From the NCBI GenBank assembly GCA_016235875.1, contig JACRII010000083.1:1-41007 (forward strand): a stretch of 41,007 nucleotides of DNA, given 5' to 3'. The position numbers and the translations under genes are program-made. This stretch comes from Planctomycetota bacterium. GTDB lineage: Bacteria; Planctomycetota; Brocadiia; Brocadiales; Brocadiaceae. Every line of letters starts with the position of its first letter. Within the stretch, counting starts at the first letter, position 1. The notes below the pieces were generated by a model. The model had not been told where the DNA came from. It did not search any database and saw only the letters and a list, made by a program, of their open reading frames with translations. Below, one piece after another: positions 2,774-40,848 of this stretch.

Positions 2774-2792
2774 CGTATGTTTTCCTTTCTTT

Positions 2793-3822: not shown

Positions 3823-3896
3823 CCCATTCGACAAGTTCAGGACAAGCTTAACCCATCCTACGCCTGTGTAGGGGCAGGTTTGAAACCTACCCCTAC
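3823..3896. repeat. Dispersed repeat fragments between cooC-like gene and acsD
   Basis: 3823-3850 contains the TTCGACAAGTTCAGGACAAG type fragment that is dispersed in many bacterial genomes. 3868-3896 is a palindrome, GTAGGGGcAGGTTT pairing with AAACCTaCCCCTAC, of the same style as the units at 9109, 9196, 23779 and 32691. Confidence 0.6.
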
Positions 3897-3942
3897 TATA
3901 GATACAATCAACATATGGCTTTTTTCAAAAAACTGAATTACT

Positions 3943-4734: not shown

Positions 4735-4756
4735 ATTAAATCCTCATAATTATTCA

Positions 4757-4788
4757 TCTCCGCGCTCTCTGCGACCTCTGCGGCGAAT
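4757..4788. repeat. Dispersed repeat unit, inverted copy of 1589-1619
   Basis: TCTCCGCG..CTCTGCGGCGAAT here matches the reverse complement of 1589-1619 with a few changes. It fills the short gap between acsV and the cooC-like gene. Confidence 0.55.
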
Positions 4789-4795
4789 ATTTGTA

Positions 4796-6721: not shown

Positions 6722-6743
6722 TGATTATCGATATCGGATTTAA

Positions 6744-6937
6744 TTAGGCTGCCTACGGCAGCGACTTTTAAAGCTTCCCTCTAGAAAGAGGGGCCGGGGA
6801 GATGTTATGGCATTTTTACACACCCCTTTATCCCCTCTTTTTAGAGGGGAATTATAAAAGATTGAAATTCCTGAACATTTAATTAAGCGGGTTATACGAT
6901 GTATGCCATAAAGAATCCCCCTTTTCTAAGGGGGATT
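6744..6937. repeat. Cluster of palindromic repeats between acsC and acsV
   Basis: Three units fill the 232-base gap. 6744-6762 matches 1649-1667. 6774-6853 holds two CCCTCT/AGAGGGG hairpins in the same arrangement as 1852-1924 (including the ACACACCCC edge at 6820). 6914-6937 is a perfect palindrome, AATCCCCCTT, loop TTCT, AAGGGGGATT. Transcripts crossing the gap would fold strongly here. Confidence 0.7.
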
Positions 6938-6953
6938 AACTCGAAACAGATTA

Positions 6954-8294
6954 TTAAGCTCGCCACACCGTCTTTAAATAAGAAGGAAGACCAGACGCCT
7001 CTCTGGGTCCTACCAATATTTCCCAGCCAAGTGTTTCTTGCAACTTACCGGACATTACGGCCACGAGTCCTGGAATAATCAATTTTCTATGCTTTACTTT
7101 CGTTTCTACCTGGGCGTCTGCCATTGCCTTGGCGACAACTTTGTCGTTTAGTTTATCGCCCGAATACGCCGTCAATACCGAAGTCCCACCAGTATCCACG
7201 GACAATATATATGCGGGAATACGGCTCCCTTCAACCTCACCCTCAACGGTATAATAGGTAAGTGAAAAATTTGTTGTGAATAAGACGGGCGAATCTTCTT
7301 TGGCGTCGCCCACGGCATACAATCTCGGTTCAACCTGGATTGGTTTTTGTGGATCGGTAAACAGATTTGTCCTTGCAGTGAGTAATGGCATAATCCCCCA
7401 GGGTTCACAGGTATTAACTGCAACAATGCCTGCATATTTTGCCAGATACGTAGATGCCAGAGAAATTTCCTGGAATGGGTCGTCATCGCAAACAAAGGTA
7501 ATCATGGGAAACCCAAGCGTTCTAAAGTTTTTCTTTAGTGCGGCGCGTCTTATCTTTGTCAGTTTCTGCAGTACTTCTTTAGGATTGTTACCGCTTACAT
7601 CCAGCATAATTTCCTCGACGCCTGCTTTCTTTGCACATTCAGCCATGTCGGCAAGTTCCTCAAGCGTTGGGGCGGTTACGGTCATCGGGCAGTTCTTTTC
7701 CTTTGCCAAAGCAGCCATGGCCTCACAGTTCTGCGAATTTGCACCGTGAACCAAAGGCCTCTTTTCAGCGCAGTTTGCCAGAGCGGCCTTCATGTTTTCA
7801 ACAGAAGCACTGCTCAAAATGATGCTCAGATGGGAACCGCTGCTGACCTTCTTTGCCGCTTCAGCAAATTTGTTTACATTATTACTTTTATTAATGACTG
7901 CGACCAGATCAATTTCAATCTCCGTACCAACCCTGGAAAGCTTCAGGCTGTTAATCTTTTTTAAACGATCGTTAAAGTCGGCATCACTTAAATCATCGCT
8001 GATAGTAACTGCCACGCCTGTTGGATGATAAAATTTCTCTTCATGTCTGAATAATACATTTTCCTCGCCAACCTCTACTTTTTTTGCCCCCGTACCTACC
8101 GTTACCAGCTTGATGGGAGGCGCAGAGGCTGCTCCCAAAACTTTCTTCGCCTCTTCACTCACGTCGGGACAATCGGACAGGTTTGCCTTTTTCTGGGCTA
8201 ATTGCATGGCAAACGCCAGACATGTGGGTCGCCCGCATTTTTTACAATTTGTCTTGGGAAGTAGTTTATAAATGTCTAGTCCAGTTAGTGCCAT
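6954..8294 (-). CDS. acsC: Corrinoid/iron-sulfur protein large subunit
   Basis: A 446-residue CdhE-type subunit. The N-terminal domain carries the [4Fe-4S] motif C17-x2-C20-x4-C25-x16-C42 (NCKKCGRPTC...DC), the low-potential cluster that reduces the corrinoid. A TIM-barrel domain and a C-terminal corrinoid-binding Rossmann-like domain follow (SVDTGGTSVLTAY and VIPGLVA-like strands near 370-420). Together with AcsD it carries the methyl group from AcsE to AcsB. Length matches clostridial AcsC. ATG 8294 follows AAAGGATCG. It is flanked by clpP upstream and by acsV after a repeat-filled gap. Confidence 0.95.
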   Translation of the reverse strand: MALTGLDIYKLLPKTNCKKCGRPTCLAFAMQLAQKKANLSDCPDVSEEAKKVLGAASAPPIKLVTVGTGAKKVEVGEENVLFRHEEKFYHPTGVAVTISDDLSDADFNDRLKKINSLKLSRVGTEIEIDLVAVINKSNNVNKFAEAAKKVSSGSHLSIILSSASVENMKAALANCAEKRPLVHGANSQNCEAMAALAKEKNCPMTVTAPTLEELADMAECAKKAGVEEIMLDVSGNNPKEVLQKLTKIRRAALKKNFRTLGFPMITFVCDDDPFQEISLASTYLAKYAGIVAVNTCEPWGIMPLLTARTNLFTDPQKPIQVEPRLYAVGDAKEDSPVLFTTNFSLTYYTVEGEVEGSRIPAYILSVDTGGTSVLTAYSGDKLNDKVVAKAMADAQVETKVKHRKLIIPGLVAVMSGKLQETLGWEILVGPREASGLPSYLKTVWRA

Positions 8295-8436
8295 TCGTTA
8301 CGATCCTTTCGCATAAAATAAATTTGCACAGCATCAAATGAAAAGCCACCCATTCATTCTCCTTTGCAAAAAGGGGGAAAAGGGGTGGCCATAAAACACA
8401 GAACATTCCAGTTGATGTTGGGCAATTACCATAAAA

Positions 8437-9051
8437 TCATACTTTTAAATCATCACTGGTCTGTATAATTTTACTGACCAATCCATACTTAAGCGCCTCT
8501 TCGGCGGACATCCAGAAATTTCTTTTCGTATCTGATTCTACTTTCCCCATGGTCTGTCCCGTTTCCACTGAAATCAACCGATTAATCTTTTCACGGCATT
8601 TGAGTATTTCACTGGCCTCGATTTGAATATCAGCGGCAGTACCGTGTATGCCGGTTGAAGGTTGATGAATCAGAACGCGGGCATTTTGCAGACTCAACCG
8701 ATTTTCCTTTTTTGCACCAAGGAGAATGATTACGGCAGCGCTGGCCGCTACTCCCGCACATATAGCCTTTATCTTCGGCTTGACAAATCGCATCATATCA
8801 AAGATTGCAAAACCGGCATCGGCATCTCCGCCCGGAGAGTTGATATACATCTTGATATCATCGTTATTTTCTGCTTCAAGGAGCAAGAGTTGCGTTATGA
8901 TCTGCTGTGCCATTTTTTTCGTCACTTCGTCCGTCACCATAACGGTACGCGTTTTTAATAACTTTGCAATCAAATCACCACCTGGTTGCTTTTCCTTCTC
9001 TTCCCCAGCACCTTCATTCTGTTTCTCTACAAATGGCATATCAAAGATCAT
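8437..9051 (-). CDS. clpP: ClpP-type serine protease
   Basis: A 204-residue ClpP peptidase. The catalytic triad is complete: S104 (AGVAASAAV), H129 (LIHQPS) and D174 (ESDTKRN). The oxyanion glycines are in NSPGGDADAG (71-80). I chose ATG 9051, which has GGAG eight bases upstream. The longer open frame to 9135 would translate an intergenic palindrome. The N-terminus has a charged linker (GAGEEKEKQPGG) longer than in E. coli ClpP. It lies inside the acs cluster between the DUF pair and acsC, an unusual place for a general protease. No Clp ATPase is nearby, so it may be one of several ClpP copies in the genome. Confidence 0.9.
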   Translation of the reverse strand: MIFDMPFVEKQNEGAGEEKEKQPGGDLIAKLLKTRTVMVTDEVTKKMAQQIITQLLLLEAENNDDIKMYINSPGGDADAGFAIFDMMRFVKPKIKAICAGVAASAAVIILLGAKKENRLSLQNARVLIHQPSTGIHGTAADIQIEASEILKCREKINRLISVETGQTMGKVESDTKRNFWMSAEEALKYGLVSKIIQTSDDLKV

Positions 9052-9108
9052 GAATAGACTCCAGATTAAAAAAATACGTGTTATAAATAAGCATTTAGTC
9101 GCCTTCGC

Positions 9109-9220
9109 GGGTTCAAGTTTGTAACTTGAACCCAAATATTTATACCTTCGAAAGCTTGATTGATAGCATATGGACTATTGTTCAGTCAAATTTAAGGGTT
9201 CAGGTTACAAACCTGAACCC
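9109..9220. repeat. Two related intergenic palindromes upstream of clpP
   Basis: 9109-9133 is a 25-base palindrome with arms GGGTTCAAGTT/AACTTGAACCC. 9196-9220 is a second 25-base palindrome with arms GGGTTCAGGTT/AACCTGAACCC and centre ACA. They differ mainly at one compensated pair, a sign that the hairpin itself is the conserved unit. The pair at 32691-32747 belongs to the same style. Confidence 0.75.
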
Positions 9221-9259
9221 GCTGGAAAACATTTGATTTTTTAAAATTTTAAATATGTT

Positions 9260-9746
<487 letters not shown>

Positions 9747-9860
9747 ACTTTATTGCCTTTTTCGCTGGCACAATCACAATACGTATCAATCGTTTGCCCA
9801 GGCACGGATGGCTCACGATCCACTTTTCCATTTCTAAACAACAATTTACACCATCAAACC

Positions 9861-12044
9861 TTAGAACATCGGCGCTAAAGTCAGCGCGGGATGGTTAACC
9901 TTCTGCATATATGTCAGAACCTCTTCTTCGGTCTGTGCTACAGTTTCATCGGCTATCTTGTTGAGAAAATCTTCCAGACGCAGACTTTCGGCGGTTTTAA
10001 CCAGCATTTCACCCAACTCTTCCTTCAATGCCTTAGGCATCCACACAACACGCGCAAGACCTCCATCCGCAGAGATAAATTTTCTGCTGCTCAGATAGAA
10101 CTTGCTGTGACCCATAAAACCGGGGGTTTGTAATCCACCGCCAACTGTGCCAGCCAGGGTGGAGAACTTCATACCGCACGGTGTCATTTCGGTAAAGTCT
10201 CGGTCTACCACCATGATCCCATTGGTCATAGGCAACATGGCTGAAATACACTCAAAACACCCGCAACTTGTCATCGGGTCTGTCATGATGCTATACAAAC
10301 TCACCTTCTCAAGCGCCCTGTTCGAACCATTGAATATAAATGAATTTGTGCCTTCCCACTGCCCCAGATTATCATTAACAACCTTTCCTCTTTCGATCGG
10401 CTGGTTTGGTCCTGTGGGATTAATCTCATAACCCGCCTTTCCGTCAAGCCAGCTAACTGAACCGCATAAACCAGAACGCTCAGGGGTAACAACACAAATG
10501 TGGGTGGGCGCAAAACTCTGACAGAGCGTACAGCTATAAAACAAATTTACCGAATCATCTGTCATACCTTTTAATCGTGCATCACGCTCTGTATAGGCGG
10601 CGCGCACGTCTTTCAAGAGATTTTCCACATCTTCCTTTTTTGTGTACAGGGTCACTTGAACCTTGTCTAAAATGGCGCCAAATTCACCATGGAATTTGGC
10701 ATGAATGATACTCCCTATGTGTTTGATCCTGAAACCTGCTTTAAAGGCTTCCTTACTGATACGATGGCGAATCATGTCCCTCTGTCCCATATGAAATAAT
10801 CCCTGAGCCTCACCCAGGAATCGATGCATCTGCCGTTCAAAAATGGGTTCAAAATCTGGCTGCATCTTTCGACCATATACTTCTACCATTATGCCTAAAG
10901 ACACACCGGGACCTGGCTTGATTTCGTCCAAATCAGGACCTATAACCTGTATTTTACCGTCTTCGACCTCATGGCCTTCTTTTGTGCAGACATACTCAAA
11001 GGCTGGTACACCAGGACCTCCGATTTCAATTTGCATGTCCTCTCTTCGGATACGTTCACCCTCAAAGGCAGGACCATAAGCTACCGGGATATCCAACTTA
11101 TGAATCGAAATCTTTAGGCCGCGTACTTCGACACACTTATCAACGATCTTGTCGACCGGTACCCTGGAAACCACGTGCTCGTACGTGCAAACCCCAGTAG
11201 GTAATATTTCGGGAATATCAATATTGGTGATCGTCGGGAAACCATAATTTATCGCACCGGCAGCATTCGCATACTGCTCGTCGGTAACTCTCGTACCTAA
11301 TGCCAGAACAAAGGCAAAGATACGGTTCTTATTATAGAGGAGATTTCTCCTGAAATCGCCAGGCGGCACGTTTCCAAAGGAAAGGGCTGCCCTATTGGCA
11401 AAACCCAGAGAATACACGGCAGCAGAGGTTTCCTTACCAAAAGGCACAAGCCGGGTATCCCAACCCATCTGTACCCCTTTTTCAGCCAACTGCTCAGCAA
11501 AAGACACACCCAGGTTGTCGGATTGAATAAACACATACAGGTTCTTTTGCTGGAGTTCTCTGGCAATCTTAACGGCTGTGTCTGCATCAGGCGCACATCC
11601 CACAATAGCAGCAAAACCAGGCGCCGTGCCGTCCACAAATTCAATACCGCGTTCACGCATAATAATATCATCAGCAGCGCCCAACCATATCCCATCTACG
11701 GGATGAGGTCCAATAAGATATTTACAGACTTCATAAATCTCTTCTGCAAAAAGCGTTGCCATGCCCGCATCCAACGTGTGCCCCAGGTATGGAACCCAGT
11801 GGTGTTCGGCAGGCAGCGGAGGCAACATGCTTCTTGCCAGGCCTAACACATGGACACAATCCTCCAAAGTTTTTACCGGAATGCCTGTCATTGAGTAAAT
11901 GATGGGCAAATAATAGGCTGTATTGGGGAATTCGACCTTACAATCACGCCCTTTCTGCGCAATTGTTTCTGAAAGCTTTTTATCAGCCTTATCTACAATT
12001 TGATAAGCGCCGCGAATGGCGGCGGAACAGATAATCTTCGACAT
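9861..12044 (-). CDS. acsB: Acetyl-CoA synthase, full-length bacterial type
   Basis: This 727-residue enzyme joins CO, the methyl group from the corrinoid protein and CoA to make acetyl-CoA at the Ni-Ni-[4Fe-4S] A-cluster. All ligands are present: C505, C508, C517, C527 (FYSCTLCQSFAPTHIC...GLC), with C594 and C596 in SCGCFEC. These are exactly one residue below the Moorella numbers (506, 509, 518, 528, 595, 597), so the alignment is almost gap-free. The N-terminal domain that docks on CO dehydrogenase is complete (IICSAAIRGAY..), unlike the short archaeal CdhC. ATG 12044 follows AAAGGGG. It is 27 bases downstream of acsA, so the two subunits of the complex are co-transcribed. Confidence 0.97.
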   Translation of the reverse strand: MSKIICSAAIRGAYQIVDKADKKLSETIAQKGRDCKVEFPNTAYYLPIIYSMTGIPVKTLEDCVHVLGLARSMLPPLPAEHHWVPYLGHTLDAGMATLFAEEIYEVCKYLIGPHPVDGIWLGAADDIIMRERGIEFVDGTAPGFAAIVGCAPDADTAVKIARELQQKNLYVFIQSDNLGVSFAEQLAEKGVQMGWDTRLVPFGKETSAAVYSLGFANRAALSFGNVPPGDFRRNLLYNKNRIFAFVLALGTRVTDEQYANAAGAINYGFPTITNIDIPEILPTGVCTYEHVVSRVPVDKIVDKCVEVRGLKISIHKLDIPVAYGPAFEGERIRREDMQIEIGGPGVPAFEYVCTKEGHEVEDGKIQVIGPDLDEIKPGPGVSLGIMVEVYGRKMQPDFEPIFERQMHRFLGEAQGLFHMGQRDMIRHRISKEAFKAGFRIKHIGSIIHAKFHGEFGAILDKVQVTLYTKKEDVENLLKDVRAAYTERDARLKGMTDDSVNLFYSCTLCQSFAPTHICVVTPERSGLCGSVSWLDGKAGYEINPTGPNQPIERGKVVNDNLGQWEGTNSFIFNGSNRALEKVSLYSIMTDPMTSCGCFECISAMLPMTNGIMVVDRDFTEMTPCGMKFSTLAGTVGGGLQTPGFMGHSKFYLSSRKFISADGGLARVVWMPKALKEELGEMLVKTAESLRLEDFLNKIADETVAQTEEEVLTYMQKVNHPALTLAPMF

Positions 12045-12071
12045 AAAAAATTACCCCTTTAGATCTTTTTG

Positions 12072-14039
12072 TTAATGATGTCCTTCCGGAACAGGTTTAC
12101 ATTCCCTTTCCAGCGCCCTTCTTTCAGCCATGTCGTAAAGCTTTCTCTCCTTCGCTACGTTTATGCCAAGCGCGTCTCTTTTCTTTTCTATGTGATCCAT
12201 TAACATCTTGCCTACCTTTTTGAGATCGCGTTCAAAATCCCACCTGGCGCCGACCAGGTCTTCCATCTCTTTGGTCAGCAACCTTTGCATATCAGGAGCA
12301 CCCGCTACGGGTGAATTCATACCAAAGACTACATAAATACCAGATGCTACGAAATATTGCCCGATAGCAATTGCCTTTTCACTCATCCATTCCAGACACG
12401 CCCCGGCAACCGGTAAATCACTTATATCATTTCCCAAACCACCTTCTTTTGCCATCTCAGACACGGCAATAAGAATACGACTATTATCGACACAGGCGCC
12501 TGAATGCAAAACAGGCGGGATGCCAACGGCCTCACAAACCTCCTTAAGACCCTTGCCACACGCATCTTTCAACTCAGGAAGCATCAAACCGCCAGATGCA
12601 CACTGTCCAGCTGCGCAACCAGTCGCCACAACCAAAAAGTCATTTGCTATGAGTTCTTTTACCATACTTACATATGATTCTTCACCCGCTGCAACCCGCG
12701 GACTCGTGCAACCGGCAATTCCAACAACTCCCCGAATTCTTCCGTTTATGATATTGTCATTTAAAGGACGGTAGCTTGCGCGATACCTGCCACCCAGCAT
12801 ATATTTAATCGTTTCATGGCTAAAACCAGCGATAAGATTAGGCTCCGCAGCGCTGGGGATAAACACCTTATTGTTATCGCGGTTTTTATAGTTTTCTATG
12901 GCCATCATGATAATCTTCTTTGCCGCTTCAAGGGCATGTTCATCTTCGAACTCCACATGCTCTGCACCAGTAATCTTTGCCTTTGATAGTGTCGTAACAA
13001 TTTTGGTGTGAAAATGCTTTGCAGTTTCAGCAAGCGCCTGCATTACGCACTGTATATCGACAACCATCAACTCAACAGCACCTGTTGATATGGCACCTTC
13101 CTGCATGGTCATGTGACCAGCCATTGGTATTCCGTGTCTCACAAGAAGTTCATTGGCGGTGCAGCAAAGACCGGCTATAACAACACCTTTTGCCCCAACT
13201 GCCTTTGCCGCCTTTTCAACTTCCGGATCGCTTGCGGCAAGAACTATAGACTCGGCAAGCTGTGGTTCATGCCCATGAACCACAAGATTCACATAATCTT
13301 TCTTTATAACGCCAAGGCTTGATCTTCCCTGTACAGGTTTTGGAGTACCAAACATAATGTCTTGCAATTCGGTTGCTATCATACAACCACCCCAACCATC
13401 TGCCAATGACACCCGCATAGCTTGTTTGGTGAGATTTCGATAGTCCTGGTCGCCGCCCATCCCCGTTCGGTGCATACTCTCTGTAACTTCGCGATCTATG
13501 GCCCTTGGGGCAATACCTAATTTTTCCCATATCTTCTGCCGTGCCTCCGGCGCCCTCTTGAGAAACAACAAGGTGCCGTAAGGCTTCCCAAATTCCATCA
13601 GCGCCATCTCCCCGACTTCCTCAGCAATTTCATTAACCTTTCGGTCTTTCGTCTTTATCCCGAAACACTCAGCAACCATCATGAGTTTCTCTACGTCTTT
13701 TATCCTATAACCCGGAGCTTCGCCCCGTGCTGTAGCCACCAATAGATGAGCCGCAGCGCGTGCATGGTCGGAGTGGCATGCAGTGCCTGCACCACTCATA
13801 CGCAGATAGTGTCTGGCTGCAAAGGTATTAGCATCTGCGCCGCAAACGCCTTTTTTCGGTCCTTTCCCGAATGGATCGATATTGCAAGGACCATAATTAC
13901 AATGGCGGCAGCATAACGCAAGACTGCCATATCCACACTGTGGAAGCTGCGCCTCGTATCTATCATACATAGTTTCTACTTTGATTTCTTTCATTCGATC
14001 AAGCATTACTTGATCTACTGTTTTTTGTTTTTCTTCCAT
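12072..14039 (-). CDS. acsA: Carbon monoxide dehydrogenase, bacterial Ni type
   Basis: A 655-residue CooS/AcsA protein that reduces CO2 to CO and passes it to AcsB through the shared tunnel. C35 and C43 fit the D-cluster that bridges the dimer. C44, C47, C52 and C66 fit the B-cluster (CCRHCNYGPC...GVC). Likely C-cluster ligands are H257 (VHGHEP), C293 (GLCCTANE), C331 (DIQC), C444 (IAGC), C475 (ATGC) and C516 (SGAC). ATG 14039 has AGGAGA at good spacing. With acsB directly downstream and a CooC-type ATPase upstream, it belongs to an ACS/CODH complex rather than a stand-alone CO-oxidising CooS. In an anammox host the expected direction is CO2 fixation. Confidence 0.97.
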   Translation of the reverse strand: MEEKQKTVDQVMLDRMKEIKVETMYDRYEAQLPQCGYGSLALCCRHCNYGPCNIDPFGKGPKKGVCGADANTFAARHYLRMSGAGTACHSDHARAAAHLLVATARGEAPGYRIKDVEKLMMVAECFGIKTKDRKVNEIAEEVGEMALMEFGKPYGTLLFLKRAPEARQKIWEKLGIAPRAIDREVTESMHRTGMGGDQDYRNLTKQAMRVSLADGWGGCMIATELQDIMFGTPKPVQGRSSLGVIKKDYVNLVVHGHEPQLAESIVLAASDPEVEKAAKAVGAKGVVIAGLCCTANELLVRHGIPMAGHMTMQEGAISTGAVELMVVDIQCVMQALAETAKHFHTKIVTTLSKAKITGAEHVEFEDEHALEAAKKIIMMAIENYKNRDNNKVFIPSAAEPNLIAGFSHETIKYMLGGRYRASYRPLNDNIINGRIRGVVGIAGCTSPRVAAGEESYVSMVKELIANDFLVVATGCAAGQCASGGLMLPELKDACGKGLKEVCEAVGIPPVLHSGACVDNSRILIAVSEMAKEGGLGNDISDLPVAGACLEWMSEKAIAIGQYFVASGIYVVFGMNSPVAGAPDMQRLLTKEMEDLVGARWDFERDLKKVGKMLMDHIEKKRDALGINVAKERKLYDMAERRALERECKPVPEGHH

Positions 14040-14183
14040 AATATTCTCCTAAACTTTTTCTGATACCAGTCGACCGATGGCATTAACCATGCAGTCACAC
14101 TAAATATCCGTCCCCATTTGAGGGGAGTTAGAACAAATCATTATAAATTTTAATGGATTGAAATCAAGGGAAAATACAAACTT

Positions 14184-14957
14184 TTACTTGATTTTTATAC
14201 AATCTTCCAACCGGCTTTTTATGCGTCTTACTTCTGTCAACAACTGACTATTTTCAGCGAAGGCAGCCCGTCCTACAATATCCGACTCAAGGACTTTATC
14301 GTTATACGAAATATACCCTAAAACCGGGATGCCATTCAATCCCTTTTCTATCAATGACCGATGGCTGTCGGAGTCCACTTTGTTACCCACGGCAAAAATC
14401 GATTTGAGCCCTATATCGTCAGCCAGCTTTTTGACCTGAAAGGCCGTTTGGATACTTTTTGAACCTGGCTCAACAATTACAATTAACGCATTCACTGACC
14501 TTACTGTGGCGCGGCCGAGATGCTCAACCCCTGCCTCCATGTCAACAATCACTACCTCGTCTCTTTGCACGATAAGGTGACTCAACAGCGCCCTTAAAAA
14601 AGCGCTTTCAGGACACGCACACCCCCCGCCCCCGCGTTTTATAGCGCCCAATACCATAAGCTTCATTCCTTCGTGTTCCAGTGAAAGTTTTTCAGGTAAA
14701 TCAGAAACTGTGGGATTAAGCGAAAAAAATTTCCCGTATTCATCCGAAGCGCCCGTACGCTCCTTTATTAAATCCTTCATCTGGCTGATTGGCACTATCT
14801 CCGTTACATTTTTAATACCCATCGTCACTGCCAGATTAGATACAGGGTCTGCGTCTATCGCAATAACCTTTTTCCCGTTCTCCGCAAAAACCTTTGCGAG
14901 TGTAGCCACAAAGGTCGTTTTCCCAACACCACCCTTACCTGAAACCGCAATTTTCAT
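14184..14957 (-). CDS. cooC: CooC-type nickel-insertion ATPase (copy 2)
   Basis: A 257-residue MinD/ParA-like ATPase with deviant Walker A KGGVGKTT (8-15), IDADPVSN (34-41) and the metal-binding C113-A-C115 in GGGGCACPES. This glycine-rich CxC is the usual form in CooC proteins that load nickel into the C-cluster of CO dehydrogenase. It is the first gene of the acs run and precedes acsA by 144 bases. ATG 14957 follows AAAGG. Compared with the copy at 3943 it has a different CxC context (GGGGCAC against GPKCYC), so the two are old paralogs rather than a fresh duplication. Confidence 0.92.
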   Translation of the reverse strand: MKIAVSGKGGVGKTTFVATLAKVFAENGKKVIAIDADPVSNLAVTMGIKNVTEIVPISQMKDLIKERTGASDEYGKFFSLNPTVSDLPEKLSLEHEGMKLMVLGAIKRGGGGCACPESAFLRALLSHLIVQRDEVVIVDMEAGVEHLGRATVRSVNALIVIVEPGSKSIQTAFQVKKLADDIGLKSIFAVGNKVDSDSHRSLIEKGLNGIPVLGYISYNDKVLESDIVGRAAFAENSQLLTEVRRIKSRLEDCIKIK

Positions 14958-17273: not shown

Positions 17274-20200
17274 CTATTTAGACAATACCATTCTTGTATC
17301 ATCTTCTACTTTTGGATAAATATCGTCTATTCCTTTCTGAATCTCAATGGTCTTTTTAATGGCTGTAACGATGTTGCAATAATGTTTTATATCATCAAGC
17401 GATAATTTTCTCTCCTTCCTGTCTTTCAGCCATTTTTCACATACCTGATAACCTCCAATTTGGTACTCAAATACTTCTGGTTCTATGCCTTCAAAATATT
17501 GGTTTTCATTGATAAACAATCTTGCAGATTCATATCTTAATTTCTCGACCTTGTTGTCACCTTTGCCCTGAAATTTGGCTATGGATGGGGTAATCTCCGT
17601 TGATTTCAGCAGGTGCAAATCAACGAGCCTTTTCCCATAATCATTCATTTTGATGAACAATTTGTAGTCTTTCGGAAAAGGTATTCTGGGGAAATCAATC
17701 TTCAGGAATTCTGCATATTTTGTGCGATAGATATTCGAATAGAGTACAGCGTAGATATAAAAGAAGATTTGTTCAGGGGTAGATGATTTCTTATAATTCT
17801 CCGTTAATTGCTCAATTATTGTAGAAGACAGATTAGGCTTTTTTACTTCATAATCCGCCTTTGGCTCAAAAAGCATCAAATTACGAACTGAAGATTGTTT
17901 CCCTGGGTTACTTTTTTCTGGGTAAACGTAAAGAGGAAAAAGATATGATTGCACTGTTGATTCACCACACTTTGTTTCCATAATTTTATCGGTACAAAAG
18001 AAGTGATTCATTTCAGACGACTTATTGCTTCTTGCTGTTATTAATCCCAAATTATCCTTCATCATATGTTGCATGACTTCTTTACGAGAGCGTTCAACAA
18101 CTGCATCGTGGTAAAAAATCCATTTAATATCAAACGGCCTATACAAAATCTGTTTTATTGAGTCCTGCCAATTTCCATCTTTTCCTACCTTTTCACGAGC
18201 AGCCCTTAATTTCCAGTTTGATTTATCTTTTAAATTGAAGGTTTGTCGAACGTGGCCATCCGGTATTTTCTCATCAGCAAACATTCTCACACGCTGTTTG
18301 AGCTTTTCTTTATCGGTGTTTATTACAAAGTTATCCCTTGCCGTAACAATTCCCACGCTATTTTGGATAAAGATATCTGTTATCTTTGGATAACTTTCGT
18401 ACTCCTTCAAAAGCCTTTCATCTCTGGGAATAAAGAGATAAAATTCTGATTTTGGAAATAACCTTTTCCATTTGGTGGTGTTAATATCATTCTTCAAGAG
18501 CCAACGGTATTTTTGTTCTCTCAATCCCCAGATTTCTGAATGATAAACCTTACAACCGTCCTTTTTATCCTTCCTTTTAACAAAAAGGGCAATTGCCACT
18601 CCTTGTTGAATATCAAAGACATTTTCGTCTTTTGAGCCGTCAGGGCATTTTTCCTTTTTGAGGCTGTTGCCGTGCAGGTCAAGGATATAAATTTCATCAA
18701 AACTATTCATCAAGGATTGTCTCATACCTCTGAAGGTTGGATTATCAAGGTAACTGTGGTTTGTAATAAATCCAAGAACTCCTTCGCCTGCCCGGTCAAT
18801 CTTCCATTGGGCAAAACGAATAAATTTTACATAGTCATCCTGCAACCACTTTGGATTTTTTTCTCCTAGGGGTTTTCCGTCAACCTGATAGTAAACCTTA
18901 ATTTCCCTAGATATCCAATCGCCGATGTTAGAAGAATGTCCTGCATATGGCGGGTTACCAAGAATAACTAAAATTGGTTGTTCCCTTTTTACTTTGCCAG
19001 CCAGGTGAGATTCTTCTGAAATTGATATCCAACCTGGCCCAAGATATTTGCTTTCGTCAGGTTCTTTCATTTCAAGGGTGTTAGTCAGATAGAGTTTAAA
19101 CCTGTCATCATCATTTAAGCGATAGCCAAGTTCTTCCAAAAGAAAAGACATCTTTAAATGACCAATTGCATAAGGTGACATCATCAGCTCGAAGGCATAG
19201 AAATTCTTGAGGATATGTTCCTTGATAAACCGTGCCCTGCCACCTTCTCCATATTTGGAAGTAAATTCTTCCAGAGCAAGTTTCGAGGCTTCGGCTAAAA
19301 AGGTCAATGTACCTGCCGCCGGGTCAAGTACCGTAACCGATTCGTTTGCAAAACCGTCGTTTCTGTCAAAGCGTTCTTTCAGAATAGCATGTAGAGAACG
19401 CACAATATAAGAAACAACAGGTTCAGGGGTGTAATAAACTCCCCTGCGTTCTCTTGTTTTAGGGTCATATTCAGCAAGAAAAGTTTCATAGAAATGAATA
19501 ACAGGGTCTTCTCCCTTGCCTTTATGAAAGTATTGATGAAGGATATTTTTTACATCGGTAACCGCCAGCACCTCTGCGATATCGTCAATGATCCACTCCA
19601 TCTGCCGTGGAAGTTCTTCAAGCGAAATAAATCTGAAAATGTCCCTTAAAATTCCAATCGTGTGCGGTATGTTTTTATGCGCAAGCTCTCTGTTAAAGAT
19701 GCCCTTTGCCCGAATCCTTGAGGCAAAGAGTCCATAGGTGATAGTTTGTGAATACAGGTCGGCAAAATCTTCTTTCGAAAGATTACTTATGAGGTATTGT
19801 TTAAATGCCTCGTAAAATCCAGTAATGCTTTTTCTTTTTCCTTCCTCTTCTTCCCGCAATTCCTGGGTAATTACTTCGTCCCTTAGAAAACGTGTCTTAT
19901 CTGCTAAAACCATTGCAAGGGATTCGGCATCGTAGAATTTTGGCAGTGAGAAGGAAAAGAATTTTTCAAGCAGTTTAAAGAAATCTGGTTCGTTCTCAAC
20001 CGGAGGAACTGTTTTAAGCATATGCATGACAAACGGCCTGCCGATACGGACTTTGTCAATTAGATCGCCGTTGCGATAGAGCCTGAATTCAACGAAGTTG
20101 GTTAGTATCAGATTAGGAAATGTCTTTAAGTAACGTTTTAGCTGATCTGTGGTTTCTATCTGATCTAAATATTCGGTAGTTGGTGTTTTTGCTTCTATAT

Positions 20201-20411
20201 AGCCAACGATATGTTGATTACCGTCCCATATTCTGAAATCGGGATTGCCTGCATCCGTCTTTTTGGGCAGGGTAGTTATGTGGATGCTTTTCTTGTTGGT
20301 TAATTCGGCATATTTCTGCAAAAAACCTTCAAGGACAGAATAGAAGCTTTCTTCTCTGGCATCTCCACGACTGGAAACCTCGTATATTCCTTTTAAATAA
20401 GATTTTAACAA
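17274..20411 (-). CDS. Single-chain restriction-modification enzyme (Type IIG-like, Type ISP-like C-terminus)
   Basis: A 1045-residue protein. Residues 1-130 are a PD-(D/E)xK nuclease domain with D58 and E73-x-K75 (NPDFRIWD...GYIEAKTP). An adenine-specific methyltransferase follows, with motif I DPAAGT (363-368) after YYTPEPVVSYIV, and NPPY at 486-489. The last 200 residues (IYAVLYSNIYRTKYAEFLKIDFPRIPFP) match the specificity domain of Type ISP enzymes. There is no helicase between nuclease and methylase, so it should cut without ATP translocation. The start is TTG 20411; a stop lies two codons upstream, so no longer start exists. It lacks partner genes and probably methylates and cuts alone. 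The recognition site cannot be read. Confidence 0.88.
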   Translation of the reverse strand: MLKSYLKGIYEVSSRGDAREESFYSVLEGFLQKYAELTNKKSIHITTLPKKTDAGNPDFRIWDGNQHIVGYIEAKTPTTEYLDQIETTDQLKRYLKTFPNLILTNFVEFRLYRNGDLIDKVRIGRPFVMHMLKTVPPVENEPDFFKLLEKFFSFSLPKFYDAESLAMVLADKTRFLRDEVITQELREEEEGKRKSITGFYEAFKQYLISNLSKEDFADLYSQTITYGLFASRIRAKGIFNRELAHKNIPHTIGILRDIFRFISLEELPRQMEWIIDDIAEVLAVTDVKNILHQYFHKGKGEDPVIHFYETFLAEYDPKTRERRGVYYTPEPVVSYIVRSLHAILKERFDRNDGFANESVTVLDPAAGTLTFLAEASKLALEEFTSKYGEGGRARFIKEHILKNFYAFELMMSPYAIGHLKMSFLLEELGYRLNDDDRFKLYLTNTLEMKEPDESKYLGPGWISISEESHLAGKVKREQPILVILGNPPYAGHSSNIGDWISREIKVYYQVDGKPLGEKNPKWLQDDYVKFIRFAQWKIDRAGEGVLGFITNHSYLDNPTFRGMRQSLMNSFDEIYILDLHGNSLKKEKCPDGSKDENVFDIQQGVAIALFVKRKDKKDGCKVYHSEIWGLREQKYRWLLKNDINTTKWKRLFPKSEFYLFIPRDERLLKEYESYPKITDIFIQNSVGIVTARDNFVINTDKEKLKQRVRMFADEKIPDGHVRQTFNLKDKSNWKLRAAREKVGKDGNWQDSIKQILYRPFDIKWIFYHDAVVERSRKEVMQHMMKDNLGLITARSNKSSEMNHFFCTDKIMETKCGESTVQSYLFPLYVYPEKSNPGKQSSVRNLMLFEPKADYEVKKPNLSSTIIEQLTENYKKSSTPEQIFFYIYAVLYSNIYRTKYAEFLKIDFPRIPFPKDYKLFIKMNDYGKRLVDLHLLKSTEITPSIAKFQGKGDNKVEKLRYESARLFINENQYFEGIEPEVFEYQIGGYQVCEKWLKDRKERKLSLDDIKHYCNIVTAIKKTIEIQKGIDDIYPKVEDDTRMVLSK

Positions 20412-33789: not shown

Positions 33790-36591
33790 TTACGTTCCAG
33801 GCTTATCCAGTATTTTCCTCACCTTTTCTAGGAGATCGTCAGGAGAAGACGGCTTTAAAATACAGTCTAATCCCTTGTCGAGGAAGTCCCTTTTGCGGAT
33901 GATGTCGTCACTATATCCACTCATAAAAAGCACTTTCATGCGGGGTTTCATTTTCTTTATTGCCTCATACACTTCTTTGCCATTTTTCCTCGGCATTATT
34001 ACATCAAGTACGAGAATATCTATGTCGTCTTTGTTTTCGCTGAACTTATTCAGGGCATCTTCCCCGTCAACCGCCTCAATCACCGTGTATCCGGCGTGCT
34101 CAAATACCATTTTGATTAACTCCCTGACCTCTGGCTCATCCTCTGCCAGAAGCACCGTCTCGGTACCCCCTCTTGAGAGAACGGTATGAGACTCTCCTCT
34201 TCCTTTCTCAGCCTCTAATTTGATAAGTGGCAGGTATATGTTGAATGTAGCCCCTTTGGCCGGTTCACTCTCGGCATTGATATAGCCGCCATGCTGTTTG
34301 ACTATTCCATACACACTTGCAAGACCAAGTCCCGTCCCCTTCCCCACCTCCTTCGTCGTAAAGAACGGTTCAAACACCCTCATCCTTGTATTTTCATCCA
34401 TACCAACACCTGTATCGGTAACCAATATATGGACATATATCCCGGCGCTTCCATACCCGTAGGAACGTATAAAGGCATCGTCCATTTCCATTATATCCGT
34501 GTGTATTGCCAAATTACCCCCGTTTGGCATGGCATCCCGCGCGTTGGTCGCAAGGTTCATTAACACCTGCTCTATCTGGCCAACGTCGGCCATGACGGTG
34601 GTATCTTCCCGGGTAAGTATCGTCTTAAGTGCAATATCTTCCCTGATGAGCCTCGACAGGAGGGACTCTGACTGTTTGATGATTTCATTGACATTGACCG
34701 GCTTTGCGCTGATGGGCTGTTTTCTGCTGAACGCAAGGAGGTCCTGGGTTAAACTGGCTGCCGTCTCTGATGACTTCAATATTTTTTGCACATAATCCTT
34801 TAATTTATTCTTCTCCTCCAGTTCCTTATTCAACAGGCTTGCATAGCCCATGATTACGGTGAGGAGGTTATTAAAGTTATGAGCGACACCGCCGGCAAGC
34901 TTTCCAATAGAGGCCAGGTTCTGAGAACGGTAGAGTTGTTCCCAGAGCTTTTTCCGCGCATCTTCAGCCTGTATGCGCCTGATAATCGAACCTATTTGTG
35001 ACAACATGCTTAAAATGAGCTTTGCGAGATGATCGTTCCTTTCTTCTGCCTTTAAACTGTAAAATACGAAAACAGAGACCACCTCGCCGTCGGCGATAAC
35101 AGGAAAGCCGATTCCCGTCTTCAAACCGACTTCGCTGGCAATTGTCGCACGCAGATAATGCGGATCCTGTGTTACGTCCTTTATCCAGACAGGCTGTTTT
35201 TCTGCCCATGAGCGACCGGGAAGTCCACTGCCAGGAGTGAAGGTAAGCCCGCAAGAATACCCACTGAATTTTTCCAGACCCTCAATACTACTGTAGAATG
35301 CATTATCGCGTTCCAGACGTGTGCCATCCTGATTGGGCACCCACGCCTCTCCATAAATCCAGCCTGTATAGTTGCATATCTTTTGCATTGCAACAACCAG
35401 CGCATCATGCAAGTTCCCGGATGCGCTAACTACAATGGCCAATGATTGAAGCAGATATATTTCTCCAGTGCGCTCAGAGACTCTTGCCTCAAGTTCCTTG
35501 CTGTAATTCATCAGGCGATCCTGGCTTTCTTTTAACCCTGCCGTCATTGTATTAAAGCAGGCATACAGTTGACCTACTTCATCCTTCGATGTGGTTTCTA
35601 ATTTTACACCAAAATTCCCTTTCCCAATTTCAAGAGCGGCATCCCTGAGACTGACAATCGGTTTCGTCATCAATCTTGCAAAAACCATTAAAATTGGGAT
35701 AAGAAATATTCCGAATGTTGACGCAATTACCGTCATCTTATTTCTTAATTCAACGGCGGGTTTTAATGCAATTTTCAGCGGAATACGCACTATCAACACC
35801 CAATTATTCCCTTTAAAATCAAGAAAACCACATTCAGGGGTAACTACGTAAAAAGACTTTTCTCCCGCATATTGAGAAACAAAACAATATTCCTTTCCTG
35901 CAAGGTAATTATTAACAACCTCCAAGTCCGCAAGTTTATCTTTCAATACTCCTTTTCTGTTATAATTGGAATACACCAACAAACCATCGCTATTCACAAG
36001 GTCAAACTGTATATGCTGATTATGCGCATCGGGATTTAATTCGCCGAGGATATCATTTAATTTATTTATTGGCATTTTTGCGTTAATGACTCCGATTTTT
36101 CGACCTTCTGGATTTTTAACAACGTGCATAAAACAAATTATCGGGACCTGCAATGTTTCATCTACATAAATACACATGGCAAAATCTTTATCCTTTAAAA
36201 TTTCCTCCCAGCAAGGACTCAAACGTTGTTGTTTACCGATATCCAATCCATACGTGTCTGCCAAACTGATTCTGTTCATGTCAAAAAACGATAATGATAA
36301 GTATGTCTTATAACTATTTCTGAATTCAATAAACTGCTTTGTAATATCTTTTCCGGTAAAACATTTGTGAGTAAATACAGGTGACTTTGCCAGTACCTTT
36401 ATATCAGCAACCCTTGCAAATAACATCCTGTCCAGTTTGTCTATTGTATTAATTGATTGTTCCTTATACCTGCTGATAATCTGGTTTTTCAGGACGTTGG
36501 CATTCGCTATGTAAACAAAATAGGACGCTGCAAATCCCACAACCAATACGATGCCGGTTACGATGAATGTTAGTTTTGTTGCAAATTTCAT
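33790..36591 (-). CDS. Membrane hybrid histidine kinase (Cache-HAMP-GAF-HisKA-HATPase-REC)
   Basis: A 933-residue inner-membrane sensor. A membrane helix (8-28), a periplasmic double-Cache-like sensor (30-280) and a second helix (285-305) are followed by HAMP (306-360), a GAF domain (385-540), HisKA with phospho-acceptor H571 (GGVAHNFNNLL), HATPase with DTGVG (726-730) and GTGLGL, and a C-terminal receiver with D863 (VLDVIMP). The kinase is of the HNFNN type with its own receiver. Its ATG overlaps the stop of the lipoprotein gene upstream (ATGA at 36588-36591), so the two are translationally coupled. The binding lipoprotein may present the ligand to the Cache domain. No separate output regulator is adjacent except the diguanylate cyclase gene upstream. 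Confidence 0.92.
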   Translation of the reverse strand: MKFATKLTFIVTGIVLVVGFAASYFVYIANANVLKNQIISRYKEQSINTIDKLDRMLFARVADIKVLAKSPVFTHKCFTGKDITKQFIEFRNSYKTYLSLSFFDMNRISLADTYGLDIGKQQRLSPCWEEILKDKDFAMCIYVDETLQVPIICFMHVVKNPEGRKIGVINAKMPINKLNDILGELNPDAHNQHIQFDLVNSDGLLVYSNYNRKGVLKDKLADLEVVNNYLAGKEYCFVSQYAGEKSFYVVTPECGFLDFKGNNWVLIVRIPLKIALKPAVELRNKMTVIASTFGIFLIPILMVFARLMTKPIVSLRDAALEIGKGNFGVKLETTSKDEVGQLYACFNTMTAGLKESQDRLMNYSKELEARVSERTGEIYLLQSLAIVVSASGNLHDALVVAMQKICNYTGWIYGEAWVPNQDGTRLERDNAFYSSIEGLEKFSGYSCGLTFTPGSGLPGRSWAEKQPVWIKDVTQDPHYLRATIASEVGLKTGIGFPVIADGEVVSVFVFYSLKAEERNDHLAKLILSMLSQIGSIIRRIQAEDARKKLWEQLYRSQNLASIGKLAGGVAHNFNNLLTVIMGYASLLNKELEEKNKLKDYVQKILKSSETAASLTQDLLAFSRKQPISAKPVNVNEIIKQSESLLSRLIREDIALKTILTREDTTVMADVGQIEQVLMNLATNARDAMPNGGNLAIHTDIMEMDDAFIRSYGYGSAGIYVHILVTDTGVGMDENTRMRVFEPFFTTKEVGKGTGLGLASVYGIVKQHGGYINAESEPAKGATFNIYLPLIKLEAEKGRGESHTVLSRGGTETVLLAEDEPEVRELIKMVFEHAGYTVIEAVDGEDALNKFSENKDDIDILVLDVIMPRKNGKEVYEAIKKMKPRMKVLFMSGYSDDIIRKRDFLDKGLDCILKPSSPDDLLEKVRKILDKPGT

Positions 36592-37607
36592 TTGTTATAA
36601 TTTTCCGCTGGAGTTGTTCGTAAAAGTTTTATATTCTCAGCAAAGCGCGGTTCAATAATTTTGCTCACATCCTGTTTTTGAGATATCTGACCGCTGGTAA
36701 TATAAAAATCCGTTATTGCGTCAAATGAACGATATAAGGAAGTCTCTTTGCTTGACACCTTCATGGCTTCTACGTTTTCATCGAGGTCAAGTAAATGAAC
36801 CCCGTTAATGCCGCTTTCCATTTCTTCGGTTGCCATCCCTTCTGCCCTTGCCATAATCTCTATAGCTTCTTTTCTATTTGAAAAAATAAAATCCCGTGCC
36901 TCTATTAGGGATTTTACTATACCCTGTATATCATCAGGTCTTTCTTCTACGATCTTTTCATGGAATGCCAGTACGTCTATTATTACACCTGGGATATCTC
37001 CGGCAGTGATAAGCACCTTATATCCCTTTTTTATTGCCTGTGTCTTTATTGGCTCCCATGTATGCCCTGCATCTATTTTTCCACTTTCCAGGGCATTGAG
37101 TACCTCCATCGCAGGTAAATTTTCAAACTGTACTTCCGTCTCGTCTATTCCAGCCTTTTTTAATGCCCTTAAAACAAAAAGATGAGAAAACGAATTTACG
37201 CCTTCAAAGCATAATCTTTTGCCTTTAAGGTCGGAAATTGAATTTAATTCAGGTCTTCCGATAATCACGTCTCCGGAGGAAGAATAGTCAGTTATATATA
37301 CAACTTTAGTGGGGATTCCTTCAGAATTGATAACAACCACATCCGTAAAGACATCAAAAAAACCATCGACACCGCAGTCTTTAAATAATTTAGCGGATTC
37401 ACTAATAAGATTTTTAAATATCAGTTCAACTTCCACATTATTTTTGCTGAAAATCCCCTTTTCCTGTGCGATGAATGCATACGCATAACCGGACCACAAA
37501 TTTATACTTATTTTTATAGGCCCTTTCCGTTCAATCTTTGTGCAGCCAGTTGATATAAAAAGAATCAATAAAACCGAAAGGGTAAACAGAAAGAATTTAT
37601 TCTTCAT
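36588..37607 (-). CDS. Orphan substrate-binding lipoprotein, SsuA/NMT1-like
   Basis: A 339-residue periplasmic-binding protein. A signal peptide with a lipobox-like end (LFISTGC, C22) predicts a lipid-anchored protein. INLWSGYAYAFIAQEKGIFSKNNVEVELIF is the opening of the SsuA/THI5-like (NMT1) fold, which binds small organic ligands such as sulfonates, taurine, nitrate or pyrimidines. I chose ATG 37607; the longer frame to 37739 only translates an intergenic repeat. There is no ABC permease or ATPase nearby, while the stop codon overlaps the start of the histidine kinase. It is therefore more likely a co-sensor than a transporter part. The ligand is unknown. Confidence 0.88.
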   Translation of the reverse strand: MKNKFFLFTLSVLLILFISTGCTKIERKGPIKISINLWSGYAYAFIAQEKGIFSKNNVEVELIFKNLISESAKLFKDCGVDGFFDVFTDVVVINSEGIPTKVVYITDYSSSGDVIIGRPELNSISDLKGKRLCFEGVNSFSHLFVLRALKKAGIDETEVQFENLPAMEVLNALESGKIDAGHTWEPIKTQAIKKGYKVLITAGDIPGVIIDVLAFHEKIVEERPDDIQGIVKSLIEARDFIFSNRKEAIEIMARAEGMATEEMESGINGVHLLDLDENVEAMKVSSKETSLYRSFDAITDFYITSGQISQKQDVSKIIEPRFAENIKLLRTTPAENYNK

Positions 37608-37815: not shown

Positions 37816-40800
37816 TTATATTTCCGATACAGAACGCGGTTTGCCGATGTAATAACCCTGCGCATAGTTTACACCAAATTCATGCAGCAGACGAACTGCT
37901 TCCTTATCGCTGACAAACTCTGCAATCGTCTTTTTCCCCAATCCACGCGCTACCTCTACAATTGCCTTGACCAGGTGCTGGTCGACCTTGTTATTGGGCA
38001 GATTCTGTATGAAGCTGCCGTCTATTTTTAGATAATCCACAGGTAAATACTTCAGGTAATTGAACGATGAAAAACCGATGCCAAAATCGTCCAGCGCAAA
38101 ATTACATCCGCAGTCCTTCAGGGTAGCAATAAAATGCTGCGCAGTAGCCATATTTTCGACCAATGAGGATTCTGTAATCTCAAAGGTGAGGTTTTTGGGG
38201 TCGATCTTTGTTGCTGACAGCTCTTCGTTTATCGTGGATAGTAATTCGATATCTGAAAGAGACCTGCCGGAAAGATTGACTTCGAGATATGCGGGCTTGC
38301 CCTCATGCTGTAACTTTTGAATGATAGACATCGCCTTATGCACCACCCATCGGTCTATATCATGAATAAGTCCAAATCGTTCCGCAATTTCAAGGAAGTT
38401 TGACGGTAAAATCTCCTTCCCGTCCGTATCCATCATTCGTAATAACGCTTCATGCCCGACGATACAGTTTTGCTGCAAGTCCAGGATAGGCTGCAAATAC
38501 AAGGCGAATTGGTCTTGTTTCAGGGCGGCGCGAATGCGTTTTTCCCACAGAAGCCGTGATTCGATTTGTGATTTTTGCTCAGGTGTATAAACACAGGCAA
38601 GGTTGCGTCCCTTTTCCTTTGCGCGGTACATGGCAAGATCGGCATTGGTAAGAAGTTCTTCCACCGTATTACCATGAGCCGGGAACAGAGCGATGCCGGC
38701 GCTGAAGGTAATGCTGACAGGTTGCCCCTCTTCTGTGAAGTCGTGGCATTCTATCATTTCCATTAATTGCTTTGCAGTGATTTCCGCCTGGCTTGCAGTG
38801 ACATAAGGCAGGATAATGGCGAATTCGTCTCCCCCCAGCCTTGCCAGGGTATCGGTATTGCGCAATCGTTTCCTGAGGAAGCTGCCAATGAACTTGAGTA
38901 ATTTGTCGCCTACATGATGGCCGAGCGAATCATTGACATATTTAAAATTATCAAGGTCGAGGAACAATATCGCCCCGTATATGCCGTATCTTCGCGATTG
39001 TACAAGCCATCTCTCCAGTTCTTCCTGAAAAAAGCGACGATTAAAAAGCTCTGTAAGGGGGTCACGGTCTGCAAGATATATAATTCGATTTTCAAAACGT
39101 TTGCGTTCCGAAATATCGCGCCCTATGGTAGAAAGGTACTCCACGTCTCCAGCGGTGCTTTTATGAGCAATGATTACCTGAGAAACAGGAATTTCGCGTC
39201 CATTACGACCGAGAAGTGCGATCTCTCCGGACCAGACGCCGTTTTTTATTGCGAATGATATTGCCTCCTCTTGAGTCAAAACATTCGTCAGGGCAGGATG
39301 AATATCTGAAATTTTCAGGTTTGAAATATCTTCATCATCGGCTATTCCCAGCATAGTTCGTCCTGCTTTGTTAACGTAGAACAAATGTCCGTCCCTGCTG
39401 GCTGTTCCAACAAAGTCGGTTGTCGTCTCCAGGATTGCAGCCAGTCTTGTCCTGGTTTTTTCCATGTTCTTCCGTTCGGTTATGTCCCAGAAAATGCCTA
39501 AAATACCGGTCACATTGCCTTCATCATCCTTTATGGGGGTTTTGGCTGTTTGTACAATAAATTCCTGTCCATCCCTGATATATCTCTCCTCAAGTTCTTC
39601 TGTTTGCCCTGATTCCATAATTCTTTTATCATCTGCCCGGTATTTATCGGCCAATTCCTTTGGATAAAAATCATAATCTGTTTTTCCCGCTATCTCATCC
39701 GGTGAGATCCTCAAATCACGCGCATAATGCTCATTGCAGGATACATAAACTGAATTTTTATCCTTCTGAAATATCTTTTGAGGAAGGTGTTCCAGAAGCG
39801 TCCTGTGCTTCCGCTCGCTTTTCCGCAACAGTTCTTCCGCCACTCTGCGATTTATGAAGGCGCCTACACGCCTGCCAATATCAGCCATAATAGCAAAAAC
39901 TTCCTTGTCGGGCTGCCGGACATCCCTGGTAAAAAAATCCATTACGCCCATTACCTCGTCTCTTGTTGCGATCGGAAATGCCATAGCTCCGTGTATACCG
40001 GGTTTTTGGGCAAGTGCCACACGGGGGAAATTTTTATCGTTAACGACATCCGTTATCCATACCGGCTGACCGCTTTCCCAGACCCTGCCCGGCAAGCCTA
40101 TTCCTTTTGAAAATGTATACGATTTGCTTACACTTTTAAATTCATACAATTCCGTTATATGCTCATGCCAGATATCTTTCAGTCGCAAACAGTGTGAATC
40201 CGGGTCCACACACCAGAGCTCTCCATATTCCCATTCGAAACCGTGGCAAATGGTCTGGAGGATTTTTGGCGCAGCCTCTGCAAGCGTGGCAGATTCGGTT
40301 AAAACAGTGGTAAGGGTAAACTGGGCGAGTTGGCGGGATTCCCTCAATTTGCGGTTGGCGATTTCGTTTTCGAGTTCTTTTACCTTTTCTTCGAGTTTTG
40401 CGGTTACAATATGACTGTAATTACTGAGAAATGTCTCATCGTCTGCAAAAGGTATTTTCTTCGCGTCTATTTCTTTAGTTTTTGCGCTTTCAAGCGTATT
40501 TCTTATCTCCCTCCATAGTTTTTCCGGATCTTTCGGTTTTTCAAAAAATGCGAGGGCTCCTTGCGAACAAGCCAGTTCTTTATCTTTACTACCCGTGTAA
40601 ACGGCTGAATAGAAAATAAAAGAAATAGATTTTAGAAATTCATTACTTTTCATGTTCTTGAGAAACTGGAAGCCGTCCATATTGGGCATAAGGATGTCTG
40701 AAATTATCAGATCGGGCTTGTGTTCCAGCGCCTTGTTTAACCCATCCTGCCCGTCTTCCGCCTCAATAACTTCGTTGCCGTTTTTTTCAATGATAAGTCT

Positions 40801-40848
40801 TAAAATCTCTCTATTTTCGCCGTTGTCGTCTACAAGCAGTATTTTCAT
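37816..40848 (-). CDS. Diguanylate cyclase/phosphodiesterase with REC, GAF and PAS domains
   Basis: A 1010-residue cytoplasmic protein without membrane segments. The order is receiver with phospho-site D51 (IISDILMPNMDG), a helical linker (145-185), GAF (185-335), PAS (345-460), PAS (465-582), GGDEF (590-755) and EAL (765-1010). The cyclase site is intact (LARLGGDEFAIIL, 669-681). The phosphodiesterase has E800-A-L, ITESSL, DDFGIGFSS and LKIDGSFI, so both activities on cyclic di-GMP look possible. The receiver lets a kinase control it; the hybrid kinase downstream on the same strand is the obvious candidate. AAGG precedes ATG 40848. Its GAF domain resembles that of the kinase. Confidence 0.94.
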   Translation of the reverse strand: MKILLVDDNGENREILRLIIEKNGNEVIEAEDGQDGLNKALEHKPDLIISDILMPNMDGFQFLKNMKSNEFLKSISFIFYSAVYTGSKDKELACSQGALAFFEKPKDPEKLWREIRNTLESAKTKEIDAKKIPFADDETFLSNYSHIVTAKLEEKVKELENEIANRKLRESRQLAQFTLTTVLTESATLAEAAPKILQTICHGFEWEYGELWCVDPDSHCLRLKDIWHEHITELYEFKSVSKSYTFSKGIGLPGRVWESGQPVWITDVVNDKNFPRVALAQKPGIHGAMAFPIATRDEVMGVMDFFTRDVRQPDKEVFAIMADIGRRVGAFINRRVAEELLRKSERKHRTLLEHLPQKIFQKDKNSVYVSCNEHYARDLRISPDEIAGKTDYDFYPKELADKYRADDKRIMESGQTEELEERYIRDGQEFIVQTAKTPIKDDEGNVTGILGIFWDITERKNMEKTRTRLAAILETTTDFVGTASRDGHLFYVNKAGRTMLGIADDEDISNLKISDIHPALTNVLTQEEAISFAIKNGVWSGEIALLGRNGREIPVSQVIIAHKSTAGDVEYLSTIGRDISERKRFENRIIYLADRDPLTELFNRRFFQEELERWLVQSRRYGIYGAILFLDLDNFKYVNDSLGHHVGDKLLKFIGSFLRKRLRNTDTLARLGGDEFAIILPYVTASQAEITAKQLMEMIECHDFTEEGQPVSITFSAGIALFPAHGNTVEELLTNADLAMYRAKEKGRNLACVYTPEQKSQIESRLLWEKRIRAALKQDQFALYLQPILDLQQNCIVGHEALLRMMDTDGKEILPSNFLEIAERFGLIHDIDRWVVHKAMSIIQKLQHEGKPAYLEVNLSGRSLSDIELLSTINEELSATKIDPKNLTFEITESSLVENMATAQHFIATLKDCGCNFALDDFGIGFSSFNYLKYLPVDYLKIDGSFIQNLPNNKVDQHLVKAIVEVARGLGKKTIAEFVSDKEAVRLLHEFGVNYAQGYYIGKPRSVSEI

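Follow-up and report, generated by a model that had tools for sequence, protein, structure and literature searches.

The 41 007 nt stretch of Brocadiaceae DNA analysed here (the window) contains a gene for a predicted solute-binding protein (SBP) that overlaps the gene for a hybrid histidine kinase. This raises the question of whether the SBP serves the kinase, as the initial annotation had proposed in describing a two-part sensor, or belongs to an importer encoded elsewhere.

The overlapping gene pair

The features at the centre of the question are as follows.

36588..37607, minus strand: NMT1/SsuA/TauA-type SBP lipoprotein, 339 aa, predicted to be lipidated at C22 (Pfam/NCBIfam, AlphaFold2, lipobox pattern)
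33790..36591, minus strand: hybrid histidine kinase, dCache-HAMP-GAF-HisKA-HATPase-REC, 933 aa (Pfam, two predicted membrane helices)
35737..36504, minus strand: extracytoplasmic dCache domain, kinase residues 30–285, on which the lipoprotein probably docks (AlphaFold2, fold match, divergence tracking that of the SBP)
36588..36591, minus strand: ATGA stop-start overlap of the two genes (sequence)

The lipoprotein gene runs from an ATG at 37607 to a stop codon ending at 36588; this start was preferred to the TTG at 37739 in the program-made reading frame, which represents an upstream extension. The N-terminus of the product includes MKNKFFLFTLSVLLILFISTGC, a match to the lipobox pattern used, with a signal peptide and C22. 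Together with Pfam matches to NMT1_2 (6e-16) and NMT1 (8e-16), this is consistent with the earlier description of an SsuA/NMT1-like lipoprotein. The match to the NCBIfam model SsuA_fam (TIGR01728; 1.6e-35, 122.7 bits) fell below the curated cut-off of 163.5 bits. An AlphaFold2 model had a confident two-lobed fold (pLDDT 93.1), for which the top PDB match was the taurine-binding protein TauA (6ssy, TM 0.75/0.85). The further best folds were SsuA, a pyrimidine-binding protein and Thi5, with none of the ribose-binding type.

The domain order given for the kinase in the initial annotation was recovered in full, with dCache_1 (residues 33–268), HAMP, GAF, HisKA, HATPase_c and Response_reg all above the Pfam cut-offs and the Cache domain identified as dCache_1. 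This domain sits between predicted membrane helices at about residues 10–28 and 286–304, and the model of the ectodomain (pLDDT 87.4) was most similar among PDB folds to the tandem Cache domain of PscC (TM 0.76). At the junction, GCGGAAAATTATAACAAATGAAATTT, the kinase ATG overlaps the lipoprotein TGA by the 4 nt (ATGA) originally reported. Overlaps of 4 nt were likewise found between SBP and receptor genes at loci L023, L086, L092, L142 and L144, and 40 of 52 SBP-receptor junctions either overlapped or were separated by ≤20 nt.

A further gene on the same strand ends 208 nt before the lipoprotein ATG.

37816..40848, minus strand: REC-GAF-PAS-PAS-GGDEF-EAL protein, candidate output partner (c-di-GMP) and putative member of the system (Pfam, neighbourhood in relatives)

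The other window genes scanned include a CODH/acetyl-CoA synthase cluster and housekeeping genes. The cluster (1988–14957) includes the activators RACo and CooC-like ATPases and has a ClpP-like protease gene inside it, and a type ISP restriction-modification protein is encoded at 17274–20411. No ABC permease or ATPase was found in Pfam scans of the 23 larger window proteins (reading frames below about 180 aa fell mostly outside the scan), in agreement with the claim that no such gene lies nearby.

Occurrence of the pair in other genomes

If the two genes had come together recently and by chance in this genome, the pair would not be expected elsewhere. A contig scan, using patterns drawn from close relatives of the window SBP and hence with counts that favour this subfamily, found SBPs with 45–49% identity directly upstream of dCache receptor genes at five loci. 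Patterns for a family-wide search could not be built, as too few stretches are conserved across the whole SBP family.

L083, unclassified bacterium: SBP directly upstream of a dCache receptor
L084, Thiotrichaceae: SBP directly upstream of a dCache receptor
L085, Omnitrophica: SBP directly upstream of a dCache receptor that is cut by the contig end
L086 and L087, two Nitrososphaerota records: SBP directly upstream of a dCache receptor

Further pairs were found at L175 and L180 and, in fragmented frames, at L181, while the SBP was solitary at L088 and L174. Most of the loci compared are from metagenome-assembled genomes. Pairs in this SBP clade span Planctomycetota, Omnitrophota, Thiotrichaceae and Nitrososphaerota. 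In the archaeal family of the Nitrosopumilus record (G336) only 4 of 151 genomes carried a close homologue, and the archaeal distribution is therefore patchy.

Within the Brocadiales, the closest orthologues (57–61% identity, in G012, G039, G040 and G041) have no kinase gene next to them, and the order-wide search found no match to the window kinase sensor domain in these four genomes. An aconitase gene immediately precedes three of the four, and in the fourth it is separated from the SBP gene by two small genes. The pairing is thus not universal, and the missing kinase weighs most heavily against a fixed pair; it is also the one point in favour of a chance arrangement. More distant homologues in G051, G031 and G002 are directly upstream of genes for kinases or dCache-like receptors, in one instance with an ATGA overlap, and the best order-wide matches to the window sensor domain were the G002 receptors adjoining these SBPs. 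In one Brocadiales relative (L017, 7606–14978), the SBP orthologue is in a same-strand run with aconitase, a DUF6036 gene, a protein-kinase-like gene and a gene for a dCache-HAMP-PAS protein with no recognised output domain, possibly a separated receptor.

The gene pair is nevertheless conserved well beyond this genome, as the order SBP-then-dCache-receptor recurs in Omnitrophota, Thiotrichaceae, Nitrososphaerota and Cyanobacteria. A chance neighbour was rejected on these grounds, and we consider this explanation highly improbable.

SBP phylogeny and the absence of ABC partners

A second possibility is that the lipoprotein works, as an orphan SBP, with an ABC importer whose genes lie elsewhere in the genome, and that it does no more than share a transcript with the kinase, which would regulate that importer. 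The fold and family are typical of ABC SBPs, and in the case of BctC one SBP serves both a transporter and a kinase (PMC9602780). In addition, the assembly is 83.5% complete, and a missing permease is conceivable.

In a tree of 119 SBPs the window protein fell in a clade of 13 (SH-aLRT 100). Seven of these are encoded immediately before a dCache receptor gene, one of them via a second SBP copy, and six have no clear partner. Homologues that normally adjoin ABC genes were what the initial annotation had said would count against it; in the tree rows with neighbourhoods, none of the 13 clade members had an ABC gene beside it, though more distant homologues are often found in ABC operons. The permease and ATPase adjacency expected of an SsuA/TauA-type ABC binding protein was thus absent both from the window scans and from the clade. 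The two SsuC-like ABC loci examined in the same genome each have their own binding protein. An ABC orphan was rejected on the basis of the ABC-free clade and these dedicated binding proteins and, given also that SBP divergence follows the kinase ectodomain (see below), we regard this explanation as unlikely. Elsewhere in the genome (L028, 2298–4223), a 641 aa protein, SsuA-like in its N-terminal half and with a membrane helix and an unassigned C-terminal half, is encoded beside an ABC permease and ATPase.

A second clade of 41 cyanobacterial SBPs (support 99) consisted entirely of proteins encoded upstream of dCache receptor genes, with a kinase, a diguanylate cyclase or a SpoIIE phosphatase as the receptor output. 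The receptor label required 11 changes on the tree compared with 39.8 in shuffles, a difference to which near-copies contribute. A topology holding the window and cyanobacterial clades together was not rejected (p-AU 0.32), but the free tree needs several partner changes, so that receptor coupling may have arisen once or more than once. Across these relatives, though not in every one, the SBP gene has a transmembrane receptor gene beside it, and the two are conserved together.

Tandem SBP genes were also seen. In several cyanobacteria (L091, L092, L093, L142 and L144) two to four tandem copies precede one dCache receptor gene, which suggests that one sensor may respond to several ligands. In a Nitrososphaeria record (L090, 5900–10623), tandem SBPs of the window clade are convergent with a gene for a CHASE-domain kinase.

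Co-variation of the SBP and the receptor ectodomain

Using 12 thinned pairs, SBP distances correlated with those of the receptor ectodomain (r = 0.904) more closely than with those of the kinase core in the same receptor (r = 0.614), with partial correlations of 0.879 for SBP and ectodomain given the kinase and 0.474 for SBP and kinase core; these values in part reflect shared ancestry. Some cyanobacterial kinase cores are nearer to that of the window than are the archaeal cores, and the SBP and ectodomain show the reverse. Closer tracking of the ectodomain is as expected if it and the SBP form one physical module.

Most of the paired SBPs have a lipobox, and two archaeal SBPs have an N-terminal hydrophobic stretch without one. 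A short motif was also associated with pairing.

37050..37070, minus strand: codons for A-G-H-T-W-E-P, residues 180–186 of the lipoprotein, a marker of receptor-coupled SBPs (motif counts)

A-G-[HQ] preceding the T-W-x-P hinge was found in 47 of 63 receptor-coupled SBPs, 0 of 32 ABC-coupled SBPs and 5 of 25 that were unassigned, all five being members of the window clade. As shared ancestry contributes, the motif is a marker and no proof of a contact site.

Since direct ligand binding is common among dCache domains, the SBP may do no more than modulate the kinase. A third explanation is that ligand sensing lies in the dCache domain itself, with the lipoprotein as an accessory inhibitor or scaffold that can act without a ligand. 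The most closely matching solved dCache structures do bind amino acids directly. However, the amino-acid dCache motif was not evident in the alignment examined, and the SBP retains a confident two-lobed fold with hinge and loop residues that are strongly conserved throughout its clade in the sequence alignment. We consider an accessory role of this kind improbable.

Exchange of output domains

The dCache_1 domain was found in partners with histidine kinase, GGDEF (diguanylate cyclase) and SpoIIE phosphatase outputs. Judged from these architectures, the SBP-dCache input module is kept in relatives while the output is exchanged. The SpoIIE phosphatase partners (L096, 6362–8365; L142; L144) represent an output that we did not meet in a partial search of the literature on SBP-activated receptors. 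Certain planctomycete kinase partners have shorter ectodomains, and some NMT1-type SBP-kinase pairs therefore lack dCache. In Oculatella (L123, 9203–13309), two NMT1-type SBPs outside the main clades are encoded near a chemoreceptor (HAMP-GAF-MCPsignal) for which Pfam gave no Cache match. A gene for a REC-GGDEF-EAL protein is downstream of the pair at L083, and GGDEF genes are beside or after several of the cyanobacterial pairs.

As the pairing, with interchangeable outputs, recurs in several phyla and in archaea, it represents a recurring sensing module and no one-off. A broader reading, which we consider about as likely as not, is that these SBPs are a dedicated family of membrane-tethered ligand-presenting proteins with a G-H/Q-T-W hinge signature and one conserved docking partner (dCache). 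The SBP-dCache unit would then have passed, as an interchangeable input, from one to another of three receptor types (kinases, diguanylate cyclases and SpoIIE phosphatases), and would also have crossed between bacteria and the archaeal Nitrososphaerota.

Comparison with known SBP-activated receptors

SBP-activated receptors are an established kind of system, exemplified by LuxPQ, NspS-MbaA and CuaDSR. As in the window pair, the binding-protein gene of LuxP-LuxQ in Vibrio adjoins that of a hybrid kinase whose periplasmic part is a double-PAS/Cache domain. LuxP is soluble and of the ribose-binding type, whereas the window SBP is a TauA/SsuA-type lipoprotein. It resembles the TauA/SsuA ABC binding proteins in fold and nearest solved structures but differs from them in having no permease or ATPase partner, in its G-H-T-W motif and in scoring below the threshold of the SsuA family model.

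In NspS-MbaA (Vibrio cholerae, Sinorhizobium) the SBP gene is also immediately upstream of that of a membrane receptor, and the output is c-di-GMP (PMC8079147, PMC9993111). There, a polyamine SBP is combined with a GGDEF-EAL receptor, whereas the window has an NMT1-type SBP with a kinase, and GGDEF receptors occur only in its relatives. CuaD-CuaSR of Ruminiclostridium cellulolyticum includes a predicted lipid-anchored SBP beside a HAMP kinase with two membrane helices, but the SBP binds cellobiose and the CuaS ectodomain has no predicted domain (PMC10384115). In Pseudomonas aeruginosa the SBP genes PA0602 and PA4985 are close to the sensor kinase genes agtS and aruS; their products bind GABA/5-aminovalerate and appear to lie outside the window SBP family (PMC11113362). 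The same paper describes SBP and kinase gene adjacency as common and cites papers on the LuxPQ complex. Activation of receptors by SBPs is described as general and widespread, archaea included, though only about ten SBP-kinase cases have been characterised (PMC9602780).

No description of an NMT1/SsuA-type SBP with a dCache receptor was found in a partial search of the literature. The initial annotation had called the split, lipid-anchored arrangement less documented. This holds for the NMT1/SsuA-dCache combination but not for the mechanism, which is known, including a predicted lipid-anchored SBP beside a kinase (CuaD, PMC10384115). The apparent novelty lies in three features: dCache ectodomains as partners of this SBP family, the exchange of outputs, and the occurrence of the pairs in archaea as well.

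Proposed mechanism and significance

The conservation of the pair, the ABC-free clade and the co-variation of SBP and ectodomain support the two-part sensor first proposed for this locus, with ligand binding and contact between the proteins as its conjectural elements. The lipoprotein is made together with the kinase and most likely passes a ligand signal to it. We think it probable that the two proteins are one sensor in two polypeptides, in which the ligand-loaded SBP signals via the dCache ectodomain. The lipoprotein would be anchored outside the inner membrane and, given its predicted fold, would bind a small ligand in a two-lobed cleft. The gene pairing and matched divergence suggest that the lipoprotein, once closed around its ligand, docks on the ectodomain, and docking would shift the kinase-phosphatase balance through HAMP and GAF. 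Judged from the domain architecture, HisKA would pass phosphate to the REC domain fused to it, from which a separate partner would probably receive it. The best candidate for this partner, more tentatively, is the neighbouring REC-GGDEF-EAL protein, and the gene neighbourhood makes c-di-GMP a plausible output.

Overall, this appears to be a real, conserved two-part sensor module, with a mechanism of known kind in a variant that appears undescribed. For many dCache receptors no ligand is known. If a whole class of them reads a partner protein rather than a free ligand, screens on the isolated domain will fail unless the SBP is present. Because different outputs are joined to one input, the system can be tested in Nostoc relatives. 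The archaeal pairs, in which an N-terminal helix seems to hold the SBP at the membrane, would extend what is known of SBP-kinase sensing in the Nitrososphaerota.
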